Part shown: positions 16,799 through 37,458 of the stretch, one piece after another | Layout of the letters: each line of letters opens with the position of its first letter | Numbering within the stretch: position 1 is the first letter of the stretch | DNA from: Deltaproteobacteria bacterium | GTDB taxonomy: Bacteria > Desulfobacterota > DSM-4660 > Desulfatiglandales > Desulfatiglandaceae | Direction of reading: 5' to 3' | Assembly: GCA_019307945.1 (NCBI GenBank) | Contig: JAFDIS010000011.1 | Location: forward strand, 1-64,000 | Length of the DNA stretch: 64,000 nt | Notes under the pieces: generated by a model | Told to the model about the DNA's origin: nothing | What the model saw: only the letters and a program-made list of their open reading frames with translations | The model's database searches: none | Made by a program: the position numbers and the translations under genes

Positions 16799-19700
16799 TC
16801 AGATTTCCTGGATCATGGCCAGGATTTGGTCTTCGCCGAAACCCTTAAGGTTGATGGCACCGGACCGGCACGATGAGACGCACAGGCCGCAGCCTTTGCA
16901 CAGGGCCTCGTTGATCCGGGCGGTGCCCGCTGGAGGGCCTTCGGCGGCGAGGGCCGGGGCCCCATAGGGGCATAGACTGACGCATACTCCGCAACCGCTG
17001 CATGCGGCGGGATTTACGCCGGCCACCGTGCCTCCTACCTGAATTGTGCCCCTGGACAGGAGCCTGGCGGCCCGGGAGGCGGCCGCCTGGGCCTGGGCGA
17101 TGGACTCGTCGATCGACTTCGGGTAATGGGCCATCCCGCAAAGAAATATCCCGTCCACGGCGAATTCGGCAGGCCCGAGCTTTGCATGGGACTCCACAAA
17201 GAAGCCGTCCTCGTTTGTCGGGAGCTTGAAAAACCGGGCCGTCTCTTCCGAATCACGCGGTACTATGGCCGAAGCGAGCGCCACCAGGTCCGCCGTCAGG
17301 GAGATCTGCTTTCCCAACAACGGGTCCTCGAATCGGACTTTAAGTCCATCTTGGGCGGGCGAGACCGAGGGCTTTCGGTCCGCTTCGTATGGAATAAACA
17401 GTACGCCCGCCTCCCGAGCGGCGCGGTAGAGCATTTCCCGTTCGCCGTAGGTGCGCATGTCCCGGTAGAGGATGTAGACCTTTGCATGGGGATTCATCTT
17501 TTTCAGGTAAAGAGCGCTTTCCACGGCGTGGGTGCAGCAGACCCTGGAGCAGTAAGGTCTTTCGGGTTCCCGGGAACCAACGCACTGGATAAAAACGGCA
17601 CATCCCAGGGTACGCAGGTCCTCATCCTCCCTCATGAACTTCTGGTCCAATTCCAGGTGGGTGACGATCCTGGGGTCCTCCCCGTAGGCGTACTCTCGTG
17701 GTTCGGCCTCCCGGGCCCCCGTGGCGATTACCACGATGCCGTGTTCCAGCACCTCACGGCCATCCCTGCCGTCGAGCGTGGTCTTGAAGTTTCCGACAAA
17801 CCCATCAACTTCCGCCACGCGTGTCTCCAGGCGCAGATCGATGTGCGAGTGGTTCTTTACGGCCTCCACCATCTCGGCCAAGCGTTGCTGGACCGGGTCC
17901 CCCTTCCAGGTCCGGAAGAGCTTTCGCGCCTGCCCGCCGAGAGTCTTCTCCCGCTCCACGAGACAGACCTCGAATCCCTGCGCAGCCAGGTTCAGGGCGG
18001 CCGCCATGCCCGAGATGCCTCCTCCCAGCACCAGGGCCCGCTGGTTGAGATCCAGTTCCGACTCCTCCAAAGGTTCCAGCAGGGCCACCTTGGCCACGGC
18101 CATGCGTACGAGATCTTTGGCCTTTTCCGTGGCGGCCGCCGGATCGTCCTTGTGCACCCAGGAGTCCTGGTTGCGGATGTTGGTCATTTCGAACAGGTAC
18201 TTGTTGAGCCCCGCGTTGACCAGGGTCTCCTGGAACAGAGACTCATGGGTCTTGGGCGTGCACGCGGCCACGACGATCCGGTTGAGACCCTGTTCCCGTA
18301 TCATGTCGGCCATGGTCTCCTGGGTGTCCTGGGAGCAGGTGTAGAGGTTGTCGGTGACAAAGGAGACGTATGGAAGACCCTTTGCGTACTCCACGACGGC
18401 CGGTACGTCCACGACGCCGCTGATGTTGATTCCACACCGGCAGACGAAGACGCCGATCCGGGGCCTTTCGCCCGTTACGGGCCTATACTCGACGGGTTGG
18501 GCTGCTGCCGTCTCCGCGTGTCGCGCTTCCTGGAGCAGGGCCCCGGCCTGGGCTGCGGCCGCCCCCGCCTCGATCACCGACTGCGGGATGTCCTTGGGAC
18601 CCTGGAAGGCGCCGCATACGAAGATCCCGGGCCGGTTGGTCCGCGTGGGCTGAAAGGTCTCCGTGTCACAGAACCTGCCGGGGGTAAGACGGAGTCCCAG
18701 CTTTTCCGCGAGGGCCAGTGAACTTGCCTCCGTTTCCATGCCCACCGACAGGACCACGAGGTCGAAATCTTCCCGCACGGTCTCCTCTTGTTGGTTCACG
18801 TAAGGGATGATCAACCTCCCTTTTCCGGGATCGGACTCCACCGTGGGGACACGCGAGCGGATGAATCGGACACCGTGTTTGTCCCGGGCTTCGATGAAAT
18901 ACCGCTCGAAGTCCTTCCCGTGGGTGCGCATGTCCATGTAAAAGATGGCGCAGTCCAGGGGTCCTGTAGCGTGTTCCTTGGCGATAACGGCCTGTTTGAC
19001 CGCGTACATACAGCAGACGGAAGAACAATAAGGGTTGTCGCAGCGGTTGAGGTCCCGTGATCCCACACATTGGATCCAGGCGATTTTTCGGGGTTCAGAG
19101 TGGTCCGAAGGCCGCAGGAGATGGCCCTCCGTAGGACCTGAGGCGGAAAGGATCCTTTCGAATTCCATGGCCGAAAGGACGTCGGGATGGGCCGAATACC
19201 CGTACGCAGTGATGCGGGCCGGGTCGAAGGGTCGAAAGCCCGGGGCCAGCACCACGGCTCCGACCCGGAGGTCCACTGTTTCGGCCTTCTCGGCATGCGT
19301 TTCCCGGGTCACCGCCCCGGCACCGCAGGCTTCCACGCACAAGTAGCATTCCGAGCAGATTCCGCAGGAAAGACACCGCTCGGCCTCGGCTACCGCTTGT
19401 TCCTCGGAAAAACCGAGTTGCACCTCCTGAAATCCGGAGATGCGTTCGGCCGGGGCAAGGCGCGGCATGGGGTTCCGGGCCACCGGCTCTCTGCCCGCAA
19501 GGGGCGGTTCGGCCACGGGTCCGGTCGTATCTTCACGGCCTTCACGAAGGTCCCGGCCCCGGAATAAGCGATCTATGGAAAGAGCGGCCTGCTTACCGGC
19601 CTCGATGGCCTCGATCACGGTCTTGGGTCCGGTAACCGCGTCTCCCCCTGCGAAGATGTCCGGGTCGTCCGTCTGAAGCGTCAGAGGATCAACACGCATG

Positions 19701-21235
19701 GTACCCCAGTCGGTCAGGGAGCAGGCGCATTCGGGGGTAAGGCAGGACCAGTCCGATTCCTGGCCTATGGCCTGAATCACCCCGTCTACCTCCAGAACGA
19801 ATTCCGAGCCGGCCACGGGGACGGGCCTGCGCCTTCCACTTTCATCCGGTTCTCCCAACTTCATACGGACGCATTCCACGGCCTTGACCCTGCCTCCCTC
19901 GCCTATGATGCGGGTGGGGTTGACAAGGGTGCGGATTTCGATCCCCTCTTCTTCGCATTCCTCCACCTCTTCGGCGTTGGCGGGCATCTCCTCCAGGCTC
20001 CTGCGATATAGAATGAAGGGCTCGCGGGCCCCGAGCCTCTTTGCCGTGCGCACCGCGTCCATGGCTACGTTCCCGCCGCCGATCACCGCGATCCGGTCAC
20101 CGAGAGTGACATGTCGGCCCAGGTTCACGTCCCGCAGGAAATCCACGCCGGAAAGGACACCCTGAAGATCCTCTCCCTCGATACCCATGCGCTTGCATTC
20201 CTGGGCGCCGATGCCGAGGAAAAAGGCCCCATATCCCTCTTTCCGAAGCTGTTCCACCGTAACGTCCCGGCCAAGTTCCACGCCGGTGCGGATTTCCACG
20301 CCCAATTGCCGTATAACGTCGATTTCCGCCTCAATAATGTCCCTGGGCAGCCGGTAGGCGGGGATCCCTACGGTGAGCATGCCGCCGGGTACGGGCAATT
20401 TTTCGAATATGGTGACCGCATACCCTTCCACGGCAAGATAATAGGCACAGGAGAGCCCGGCTGGGCCAGACCCGATCACGGCCACCTTTTTCCCTTTGAG
20501 TTCCTTTCGTTCAGGCACGTAGCGGGTCTCCGAATGAAGGTCCAGGTCCGCCACGAACCGCTTGATGAAATCGATGGCCAGGGGTTCGTCCACCTGGCCC
20601 CTGGCGCAGGCCTCTTCGCAGGGATGGTGACATACCCTGCCGCAGATGGCGGGGAGCGGATTTTGCTCCTTGATGAGTTTCAGCGCCTCCCGGTATTTTC
20701 CACGGGCCACCAGGGCCACGTATCCCTGGACGCTTATATGGGCAGGGCAGGCGGCCTTGCACGGGGCCGTGCCCCGCTTGGAGATGGCGTAGGCGCCGGG
20801 GATGGCCTGGGCGTATTTCTTGAAGATGGCCTTTCGAGACTTCAGGCCCTGCTCATGCTCCGCGGGCAGGGAGACGGGACACACCGCCTCGCAGTCACCG
20901 CAACCCGTGCAACGGGAAGGGTCGATGTAACGGGGATTCCTGTGGACCCTGATCGTGAAGTTCCCGGGCTCGCCGCTGATGCCTTCCACCTGGGCGCAAG
21001 TAATAAGGTGAATGTCCGGATGCCGGCCGACCTCGACCAGTTTAGGCGAGATGATTCACATGGCGCAGTCGTTGGTGGGGAAGGTCTTGTCCAGCGCGCT
21101 CATCACACCGCCGATGGCGGAAGATTCCTCCACCAGGTACACGCGATAGCCCGAATCGGCGAGGTCCAGGGCGGCCTGCATGCCCGCGATGCCGCCTCCC
21201 AAGACCAGAACGGATCCACTCACGTCTCGTGACAT
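16799..21235 (-). CDS. hdrA: Selenocysteine-containing HdrA-GltD-HdrA fusion flavoprotein
   Basis: A 1478-residue protein if the in-frame TGA at 21058-21056 is read as selenocysteine (residue 60). Residues 1-59 hold the HdrA FAD motif [12 protein letters not shown] and end TFPTNDCAM; directly after the TGA the frame continues [17 protein letters not shown], the normal HdrA sequence where other members have Cys or Sec. A ferredoxin motif [12 protein letters not shown] is at 109-120. Then comes a GltD-like NAD(P)H module (about 150-590; CKAACP at 159, GSGPAGLS at 255), a [13 protein letters not shown] cluster region and the rest of the first HdrA unit. The second HdrA unit starts around 925 with [14 protein letters not shown], has [14 protein letters not shown], and ends in two [4Fe-4S] motifs, [12 protein letters not shown] and [11 protein letters not shown]. 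Likely a cytoplasmic electron-bifurcating or -confurcating hub with HdrBC and ferredoxin. Without readthrough the start would be lost or a 1396-residue product would lack its FAD loop. Confidence 0.88.
21023..21040 (-). promoter_or_regulatory. SECIS-like stem-loop after the hdrA TGA
   Basis: In the mRNA, 15 bases after the UGA, CUGGUC pairs with GGCCGG (two G-U pairs) around the loop GAGGUC. Bacterial SECIS elements lie at this distance and show a GU in a small apical loop; the AGGUC here is also present in the E. coli fdhF loop. This is a fold by eye. Confidence 0.55.
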
Positions 21236-21281
21236 GGAACACTCCTTGTCAAAAAGGTGGATGGGGACGCCGAGAAATGGC

Positions 21282-21303
21282 TACAATGTAATTATAATAT
21301 AAC
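21282..21303 (-). promoter_or_regulatory. Tandem 11-bp operator-like repeat near hdrA
   Basis: Two contiguous 11-base units, TACAATGTAAT (21282-21292) and TATAATATAAC (21293-21303), lie 47 bases upstream of the hdrA start. A matching pair lies near hdrC at 21546-21567. An 11-base period is one helical turn, as in PhoB/OmpR-type sites. Confidence 0.55.
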
Positions 21304-21335
21304 CATAAACCCGCATCACGATCAACCAAAAATTA

Positions 21336-21482
21336 GTCACGCCGTATCAGCTCAATAATTAGGGGGATAACAGCGAACATACCACCGGGGCAGGAGGATT
21401 TTTCTTCCGCTCCGGGCCTCCGGGCTGGTCTCTTCAGAAAAACCTTCCTGCCCCTATTTATTGAGCTATTACGTCACGCCGT
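21336..21482. mobile_element. MITE-like hairpin element between hdrA and hdrC
   Basis: A long imperfect inverted repeat spans 21349-21467: the outer arm AGCTCAATAATTA pairs with TATTTATTGAGCT, and the inner arm GGGGCAGGAGGATTTTTCT pairs with AGAAAAACCTTCCTGCCCC. Ten bases, GTCACGCCGT, occur directly repeated just outside at 21336-21345 and 21473-21482, like a target-site duplication. No transposase is present. It could also be a structured intergenic repeat. Confidence 0.45.
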
Positions 21483-21545
21483 TGAAAGGATGGGGAAATC
21501 GTTTCTTTTGTCTTTCTTCTCCGGTTTTTGAGGTTGCCATGTGGC

Positions 21546-21567
21546 TACAATATAGTTACAATATAGT
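21546..21567 (+). promoter_or_regulatory. Tandem 11-bp operator-like repeat on the hdrC side
   Basis: Two perfect contiguous copies of TACAATATAGT (21546-21556 and 21557-21567). Like the pair near hdrA, it is preceded by TGGC. The same orientation and near-identical sequence on both sides of the divergent region suggest joint control of hdrA and hdrCB. Confidence 0.6.
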
Positions 21568-21857
21568 TTCTAAAATGAGCGTTTCAAATTTTGATGAAAT
21601 AATTTTGTTATAAATTTCAACCAGATAAATCCTATTATCGCATGGTGTATTGTCACCCGTAAGGTGGACACCGTGTGAGTCATTTCTTGGGCAGAACATC
21701 AAGATTTGAAACCCAACAGGATTTCCGGTTTTACGGGATCCGCCGCGTTGCCCGCCTGCGCCCCGGGCGGGTTTCCGGGAAACTCGGAAATCGCTCAATT
21801 TGGGCGTTATGTGAAAAAATGCCCCGCGTGACTCAGCGGACAGAGAAGGAGAGGCCC

Positions 21858-22322
21858 ATGGAACGGATCGATCTGGACGCTGCGGACCCGGGTTTTGCCG
21901 AGGCACTGGCCTCCCAACCCGGTGGGGAGCGTATCGCCGCCTGCTTCATGTGCCGCACCTGCGTGGCCAGTTGCCCCATTTCCGCTGTGGACCGCAGATT
22001 TCACCCCTTGCGGATCATACGCTTGGCCCTCTACGGCCTGAAACAAGAGGTCCTGGCCAGCGATTTCATTTGGCTCTGCTCCAGTTGCTATGCCTGCCAG
22101 GAGCGGTGCCCCCAGGGCGTGAAGATCTCCGATTTCATGACGCTCCTCAAGAATCTCGCGGTGAAGGAAGGCCACGTGCCCAGGGGGATAAGGGCCCAGT
22201 TGGATCTCATCCGGGAGCATGGCCGGATCTATCCCATCGACGATTTTGACAACAAGAAACGAAACAAGGCCGGACTGCCTTCCCTGCCCACCTCCTGCGA
22301 CGTAGTCGCTAAGCTGGCTTGA
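21858..22322 (+). CDS. hdrC: HdrC-like heterodisulfide reductase iron-sulfur subunit
   Basis: A 154-residue protein with two [4Fe-4S] motifs, CFMCRTCVASCP (about residues 31-42) and CSSCYACQERCPQ (about 75-87), the HdrC pattern. It would carry electrons between the HdrA flavoprotein and HdrB. I choose ATG 21858 because AAGGAGAGG precedes it; the longer frame upstream has no conserved content. HdrB follows after 39 bp. It is transcribed away from the large HdrA gene, unlike the usual single hdrABC operon. Confidence 0.9.
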   Translation: MERIDLDAADPGFAEALASQPGGERIAACFMCRTCVASCPISAVDRRFHPLRIIRLALYGLKQEVLASDFIWLCSSCYACQERCPQGVKISDFMTLLKNLAVKEGHVPRGIRAQLDLIREHGRIYPIDDFDNKKRNKAGLPSLPTSCDVVAKLA

Positions 22323-22361: not shown

Positions 22362-23237
22362 ATGAATTACGCCCTTTTCCTAGGCTGTACGATCCCCGCC
22401 CGGTCTAGAAACTATGAGATGTCCGCCAGGAGAGTGGCGGAAAAGGTAGGCCTTTCCCTGGTGGACGTGGAAGAGTTCGTTTGCTGCGGTTTCCCGGCCA
22501 AGAACAGTGACCGGGAGTTTTCGGAGACACTCGGGGGCTACAACCTCGCCCTGGCGCAGCAGCGCGGAATGGATATCTGCGTGCTTTGCAGTTCCTGCGC
22601 CTCGGCCCTTACCGAGACGGCCCACAGGCTCTCCTCCGATCCCAGGGCACGCGATCGTGTCAACGGACGCATCGCCGCCGCCGGCCTTCGTTACGACGGG
22701 GACGTGCGGGTGAGGCATTTCGCCCGTCTGCTCCTGGAGGATGTGGCTCCAGAGACCATCACCTCCCGTTGTGAGAGGGATCTCACGGACCTCAGGGTTG
22801 CGGTCCATTACGGATGCCATTACTTGAAGCCGTCCGAAATCTACGACGGGTTCGATGACGTTGAGGCCCCCGACTCGGTGGAAGCCCTGTTGCGGCTCGC
22901 AGGGGTGGACGTGGTGGATTACCCTTCCAAGAAGATGTGCTGCGGGGGCCCCGTGCTTCCCGTTGACGAAAAGCTGGCCCTGGCCGTTGCGCACGAAAAG
23001 CTGACCCAGCTCCGGGATGCGGGTGCGGAGGCCCTCTGCCTGGTCTGCCCCTTCTGTTCCGTGATGTATGACGGGAACCAGAAGGGCATCGAATCGGAAT
23101 TCGATGAGAGTTACGGCCTGCCCGTCCTCTACCTCACGCAGATACTGGGCCTGGCCATGGGGTTCGGCCGGAAAGAACTGGGCCTCAACATGAACGTGGT
23201 GAAGACCAAGAAACTCCTGGCGCGCTATTTCGAGTGA
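22362..23237 (+). CDS. hdrB: HdrB-like heterodisulfide reductase catalytic subunit
   Basis: A 291-residue protein starting MNYALFLGCTIPARSRNYE. It carries the two CCG-domain signatures expected for HdrB noncubane clusters: EEFVCCGFPAKN with a following CSSCASAL, and YGCHYLKPSEI with KKMCCGGPV and CPFCSVMYDGNQ. In methanogens this subunit reduces the CoM-CoB heterodisulfide; in sulfate reducers the thiol/disulfide substrate is not established and might be a DsrC-like protein. Probably co-transcribed with hdrC and perhaps with glpK downstream. Confidence 0.9.
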   Translation: MNYALFLGCTIPARSRNYEMSARRVAEKVGLSLVDVEEFVCCGFPAKNSDREFSETLGGYNLALAQQRGMDICVLCSSCASALTETAHRLSSDPRARDRVNGRIAAAGLRYDGDVRVRHFARLLLEDVAPETITSRCERDLTDLRVAVHYGCHYLKPSEIYDGFDDVEAPDSVEALLRLAGVDVVDYPSKKMCCGGPVLPVDEKLALAVAHEKLTQLRDAGAEALCLVCPFCSVMYDGNQKGIESEFDESYGLPVLYLTQILGLAMGFGRKELGLNMNVVKTKKLLARYFE

Positions 23238-36793: not shown

Positions 36794-36821
36794 CTTTCTG
36801 AATGAATCGTCATTCAGAAAG
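36794..36821. promoter_or_regulatory. TetR-type operator, perfect 28-bp palindrome
   Basis: CTTTCTGAATGA and TCATTCAGAAAG are exact inverted copies around ATCG. The core TGAATGA-4-TCATTCA resembles operators of TetR-family regulators of fatty-acid degradation. It lies between the promoter and the TetR start at 36832 and could also influence the divergent liv promoter about 80 bases away. Confidence 0.75.
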
Positions 36822-36831
36822 GCCCGCATTC

Positions 36832-37458
36832 ATGCCGAAGAGAAAGAATTCCCAAAAATATTACCGGATCATCGAGGCGGCCACCAGGATCTTCGCGGAA
36901 AAGGGTTTTTTCCAGGCCAAGGTATCGGATATCGCCCGCGAGGCCGGGGTGGCGGACGGGACCATCTATATTTACTTCGAAAACAAGGACGACATCCTGA
37001 TCTCCTTGTTCGAGGAACAGATCAAGGTGGTACTCGACAACATGATCCGGGATGTGTCCGGGGAGAAAGGCCCCATAGAGAAACTCCGGCGCTTTGCCCT
37101 GACCCACCTGGAGCTCATCGAAAAGAACAAGAGCATGGCGGAGATCATTCATGTGGAACTGCGACAGAGCAGCAAATTCGTAAAGGAGTACAAGAACGAA
37201 AATTTCGCCCGCTACCTGGACATCCTGGCGGACATCGTTCGGGAGGGGCAGGAGCAGGGGGTTTTCCGCCGGGACGTGATCCCCGGGGTGGCCAAGCGGG
37301 CCATATTCGGAGCCCTGGACGAAATGTCCAGGTTTTGGGTGTTGTCAAGTAAAAGGGAGTATGATATTAAAACCGCTGCTGAACAGATAAGCAGCTATTT
37401 TATCGAGGGCATGTCGGAGAAAAGTGCCGAGGGAGGTGCCCTAAAGACAGGCTCATGA
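36832..37458 (+). CDS. TetR-family transcriptional regulator
   Basis: A 208-residue repressor. The N-terminal helix-turn-helix is typical: IIEAATRIFAEKGFFQAKVS, then IAREAGVADGTIYIYFENKD. The C-terminal domain fits the TetR_C group that senses acyl-CoA esters (FadR/RfaA-like in Gram-positive and Desulfobacterota lineages), but the ligand is inferred. I start it at ATG 36832; the upstream ATG at 36802 lies inside the perfect operator palindrome. It leads into etfBA after 92 bp and likely controls itself, etfBA and the divergent liv operon. Confidence 0.9.
   Translation: MPKRKNSQKYYRIIEAATRIFAEKGFFQAKVSDIAREAGVADGTIYIYFENKDDILISLFEEQIKVVLDNMIRDVSGEKGPIEKLRRFALTHLELIEKNKSMAEIIHVELRQSSKFVKEYKNENFARYLDILADIVREGQEQGVFRRDVIPGVAKRAIFGALDEMSRFWVLSSKREYDIKTAAEQISSYFIEGMSEKSAEGGALKTGS

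Follow-up and report, generated by a model that had tools for sequence, protein, structure and literature searches.

The two pairs of 11-bp tandem repeats in the divergent hdr region are very probably the cores of 28-bp operators for one trans-acting repressor, positioned over the predicted promoters of hdrA and hdrCB. As judged from comparison of the sites and of the genes beside them, the operator is real and conserved, and across a group of anaerobic Desulfobacterota it marks a regulon serving the anaerobic breakdown of aromatic compounds and acyl-CoAs. Searches of open-access papers returned no description of this operator, which is, as far as could be checked, new relative to that literature.

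Three half-sites in the divergent hdr region

In the window, that is, the whole stretch of 64,000 nucleotides that was analyzed, positions 21282-21303 were found to consist of TACAATGTAAT/TATAATATAAC, and positions 21546-21567 of two copies of TACAATATAGT, each pair being directly preceded by TGGC (21278-21281 and 21542-21545, respectively). When the window was searched with TAYAATRTANNTAYAATRTA at up to three mismatches, five matches were obtained, every one of them in the divergent hdr region, whereas 100 shuffles averaged 0.03 matches and never exceeded 1. By these searches, the repeat pairs and their preceding TGGC, which had been noticed earlier from the letters of the sequence, were present as described and far from chance. 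The two-unit structure then assigned to them, however, did not stand, since each site was shown to comprise three half-sites (TGGCTA-N5-TAATTA-N5-TAACCA and TGGCTA-N5-TAGTTA-N5-TAGTTT), and TGGC is thus a part of the motif itself, starting the first half-site (TGGCTA). The units do share the same orientation as had been claimed, but this is barely informative because the half-sites are near-palindromic, whereas their placement on one face of the helix was borne out by the 11-bp spacing of the half-sites.

Side-by-side comparison of the sites found in the same genome by a palindromic-unit search and a looser tandem search yielded the element as a 28-bp near-palindrome, TRRYYA-N5-TARYTA-N5-TRRYYA, in which three half-sites follow one another at intervals of one helical turn (11 bp). 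Across the whole genome, the former search had identified further sites at C34, C105, C126, and C185, and the latter an additional one at C96. Operator 1 (21278-21305; TGGCTA-CAATG-TAATTA-TAATA-TAACCA), which holds the first repeat pair, matches this motif exactly and lies 43 bp upstream of the hdrA start, and operator 2 (21542-21569; TGGCTA-CAATA-TAGTTA-CAATA-TAGTTT), which holds the second, has one mismatch in its third half-site and lies 289 bp upstream of the hdrC start.

The genome was found to contain five exact copies of the element against approximately 0.013 expected from base composition, an excess of about 400-fold, and eight copies at no more than one mismatch against approximately 0.55 expected, while the reversed pattern used as a control gave no match at either setting. 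At up to three mismatches there was no enrichment (43 matches versus 103 in the control), so that weak sites are not callable, and the analysis was restricted to near-exact sites. The dyad identity of the whole site averaged 9.85 of 14 positions and the direct identity of the 11-mers about 7 of 11, both of which follow from the column consensus. Furthermore, 42 of 314 flanks carried a fourth half-site (at least five of six matches at -11) versus a background of about 17; such an extension suggests cooperative binding of repeated subunits.

The hdrA gene occupies 16799-21235 on the reverse strand, with its ATG start at 21235. Its in-frame TGA at 21056-21058 is probably read as selenocysteine, and open reading frame calls that start at 20989 therefore miss the true N-terminus of the protein; in one related genome (G004), hdrA has an in-frame TGA at the same place, and its divergent start is also kept. 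On the forward strand, an hdrC-like gene for a 4Fe-4S protein (21858-22322, start ATG 21858), sharing 73% identity with hdrC of another relative (G052), is followed by an hdrB-like gene (22362-23237) encoding two CCG domains. The interval between the two operators has been enlarged by the insertion of a 131-bp hairpin repeat element (21343-21473), further copies of which occur in the genome, and the element is bordered by direct copies of GTCACGCCGT at 21336-21345 and 21473-21482 that are likely a target-site duplication. In a larger copy of the hairpin element (C26:17132-17375), the central part holds a different inverted repeat, which is nested. In the Rfam search, tRNA was the sole match.

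Conservation of the element and its recurrent neighbors

Among 99 genomes picked by relatedness, exact 28-bp sites were found in 73, amounting to 176 sites as compared with 5 for the reversed control. The motif is thus kept in relatives, where a lack of conservation had been named in the earlier note as counting against the repeats. A stricter pattern run against 84,980 species genomes returned 89 stretches, nearly all of them in Desulfobacterota, and the cultured Desulfosarcina widdelii PP31 was among the genomes having such stretches.

Occurrences were also observed elsewhere. In the Spirochaetes metagenome-assembled genome Dive96_bin3.202, outside Desulfobacterota, the operator is present at L280:4707-4734 and L346:7629-7656; this genome carries bamB-bamC-bamD homologues together with GNAT and acyl-CoA dehydrogenase genes, and the L280 site adjoins the bam genes. 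The operator may thus travel with bam genes by horizontal transfer, unless the contig was misassigned through a binning error. In a Thermoplasmata archaeon metagenome-assembled genome, six successive half-sites at 11-bp spacing were found (L315:6929-6989), the adjoining genes having no obvious relation to the regulon.

The recurrent neighbors of the sites, namely bamB, the SDR-Had-Oah operon, a GlcD-CCG oxidase, thiolases, etfBA, and hdr operons, belong to anaerobic aromatic and acyl-CoA degradation. With all loci fetched, these gene classes were shown to flank 147 of the 170 unique sites, a figure that describes recurrence across genera and is not an independent test of enrichment, since the classes were built from the site neighborhoods themselves. 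In the genome under study, the targets in addition to hdrA and hdrCB are the SDR-Had-Oah operon divergent from an IclR regulator (Had and Oah being assigned by the curated models TIGR03201 and TIGR03200), a GlcD-CCG oxidase, a bamB-type aldehyde ferredoxin oxidoreductase with a bamD-like gene after it, a paired GNAT and transglutaminase, an acyl-CoA dehydrogenase encoded divergently from an HdrC-like gene, and a TRAP binding protein. The genes that we take to be bamB, bamC, and bamD were so named from gene order, domain hits (AFOR, 4Fe-4S, and CCG), and what is known of the gene cluster for class II benzoyl-CoA reductase.

Copies upstream of redox genes, the absence of which had likewise been named in the earlier note as counting against the repeats, were indeed found, for example at hdr operons in seven other genomes. 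In G004 and G052, an exact site lies immediately upstream of hdrC, and in five more genomes the site precedes hdrB, being exact in G027, G065, G071, and G075 and having one mismatch in G081. Meanwhile, the hdrC homologues of several relatives, at L007, L013, L014, L018, L019, and L023, are without a site; the presence of hdr in the regulon is thus recurrent but not universal.

A gene for a GNAT acetyltransferase (L068:820-1263, with homologues in many loci) was among the commonest first genes beside the operator, and it frequently either diverges from a transglutaminase-like gene or lies upstream of bamB. In addition, a class III nucleotidyl cyclase gene together with a metallo-beta-lactamase-like gene (L087:1919-3787 and L365:2159-3997) was observed upstream of bamB in the genome under study and, in G018, on the contig that carries the bam genes. 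This pair was considered as the regulator and rejected, as the products are not DNA-binding.

Promoter overlap and candidate regulators

All promoters referred to here were predicted by consensus. In one orientation or both, an exact TTGACA occurred between -43 and -7 at 131 of the 157 sites, as compared with 5 of 157 control windows, and its offsets clustered at -8, -26, and -36/-37, implying that the sites either cover the spacer and the -10 box or begin at or just after the -10 box. In the window, the predicted hdrC promoter, TTGCCA-17-TACAAT (21534-21562, forward strand), is a consensus match that places its -10 box inside operator 2 and its -35 box at the common -8 offset of the family, and the predicted hdrA promoter, TTGATC-18-TATATT (21296-21325, reverse strand), is a weak consensus match with its -10 box inside operator 1. 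By prediction, therefore, the sites overlap a promoter or transcription start; since they lie over or just downstream of predicted sigma-70-like promoters, where repressors bind, they look like repressor operators, and the protein that reads them would most likely act as a repressor.

In the mechanism that we propose, this protein would occupy the three half-sites, which are phased along a single helix face, and block RNA polymerase, and an aromatic or alicyclic acyl-CoA intermediate would release it, so that production of the Hdr module would be coupled to that of the pathway it serves. The hdr genes are thus probably switched jointly with the aromatic-degradation pathway by one regulator. 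A regulator shared by both repeat pairs, as had been suggested, is supported by the common motif, the copies at redox genes, and the conservation. Among the regulator genes beside the sites, none recurs consistently.

The earlier note had pointed to the pattern used by PhoB/OmpR-type regulators and to a shared regulator or a looping complex; in the corresponding model, a response regulator of this type would bind 11-bp direct repeats at both ends of the divergent hdr region and activate or loop it. The 11-bp spacing on one helix face, the presence of two sites in one divergent region, and the average direct-repeat identity of about 7/11 between adjacent 11-mers would all suit such a protein. 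However, the sites were found to contain three near-palindromic half-sites instead of two directional units, although symmetry by itself does not decide the protein family of the reader, and they lie over the -10 box or just past it; no response-regulator cluster recurs near them, although an unlinked one may exist. The looping complex was not supported either: the majority of targets have only one site, each of the two in the window coincides with a predicted promoter of its own, and the interval between them was altered by the 131-bp insertion, because of which the looping phase between the operators was dropped from consideration. The response-regulator model as a whole is thus unlikely.

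The FadR-like TetR regulator encoded at 36802-37458 (forward strand), followed by etfBA, was first favored as the reader on synteny, responding to acyl-CoA: in many relatives its gene and hdr are linked, one family of loci (f4) has the site between hdrB and tetR-etfBA, and TetR operators often overlap promoters. It was dropped once its own FadR box was seen. A classical FadR box lies at the start of the gene in the window (36799-36816), the box TGAATGAN4TCATTCA is present at the gene in most relatives and absent from the hdr sites, and an orthologue is missing from four genomes that do have exact sites (G010, G013, G037, and G025). That this protein reads the sites is accordingly very unlikely.

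Comparably improbable as the reader is the BhcR-like IclR regulator divergent from the SDR-Had-Oah operon of the genome under study. An exact site does occur in its divergent promoter region, and regulators of the IclR family commonly control aromatic pathways; its orthologues in other genomes, however, rarely have a site, and four genomes with five to six exact sites (G081, G036, G069, and G027) have no close orthologue. The candidate thus fails the distribution test, in which an orthologue should be found wherever the motif is. PaaX, located beside one site in G074, was rejected as well, its only clear match being in G074 and one marginal match, just above the cut-off, in G059, as were GntR and XRE-cupin regulators, each near one site. 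Finally, although TACAAT and TATAAT resemble -10 boxes, a chance run of AT-rich promoter DNA that carries duplicate -10-like boxes and has no dedicated regulator is practically out of the question given the roughly 400-fold excess of exact matches in this genome and the near-zero controls in the 99 genomes, and it would leave the taxonomic restriction and the recurrent gene classes unexplained.

Beyond the repressor reading of the two hdr operators, we tentatively put forward, as possible rather than probable, an order-wide regulon for class II benzoyl-CoA degradation in Desulfobacterota, in which at least three palindromic half-sites, each a helical turn from the next, would be read by a regulator of an unrecognized kind, and Hdr and Etf modules dedicated to the pathway would serve as electron partners. 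One searchable 28-bp site linking bam, had/oah, etf, and hdr names candidate electron partners of the pathway, and it provides bait for isolating the regulator.

Comparison with known systems

In Azoarcus sp. CIB, the operators of MbdR, a repressor of the TetR family that is released by aryl-CoA, span the -10 and +1 positions of several promoters of an anaerobic aromatic pathway (PMC4424350). The 28-bp element is similar to those operators in its location at promoters of an anaerobic aromatic pathway, predicted ones in the case of the element, whereas the MbdR operator, ATAC-N10-GTAT, is an 18-bp dyad of two half-sites and the element has three at 11 bp. Known regulators of benzoyl-CoA genes in obligate anaerobes include BgeR and BamVW of Geobacter. 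FadR (YsiA) of Bacillus and its relatives regulates acyl-CoA oxidation and is linked to etfBA; the centers of its half-sites are 11 bp apart as in the 28-bp element, but its box, TGAATGAN4TCATTCA, differs from the element and is separately present in the window.

The ribbon-helix-helix proteins ParR, Arc, and MetJ bind arrays of short palindromic subsites at fixed spacing, sometimes with one further subsite. By analogy, the 28-bp element appears to resemble these arrays, with its repeated short palindromic subsites, their fixed spacing, and the further one that is sometimes present.
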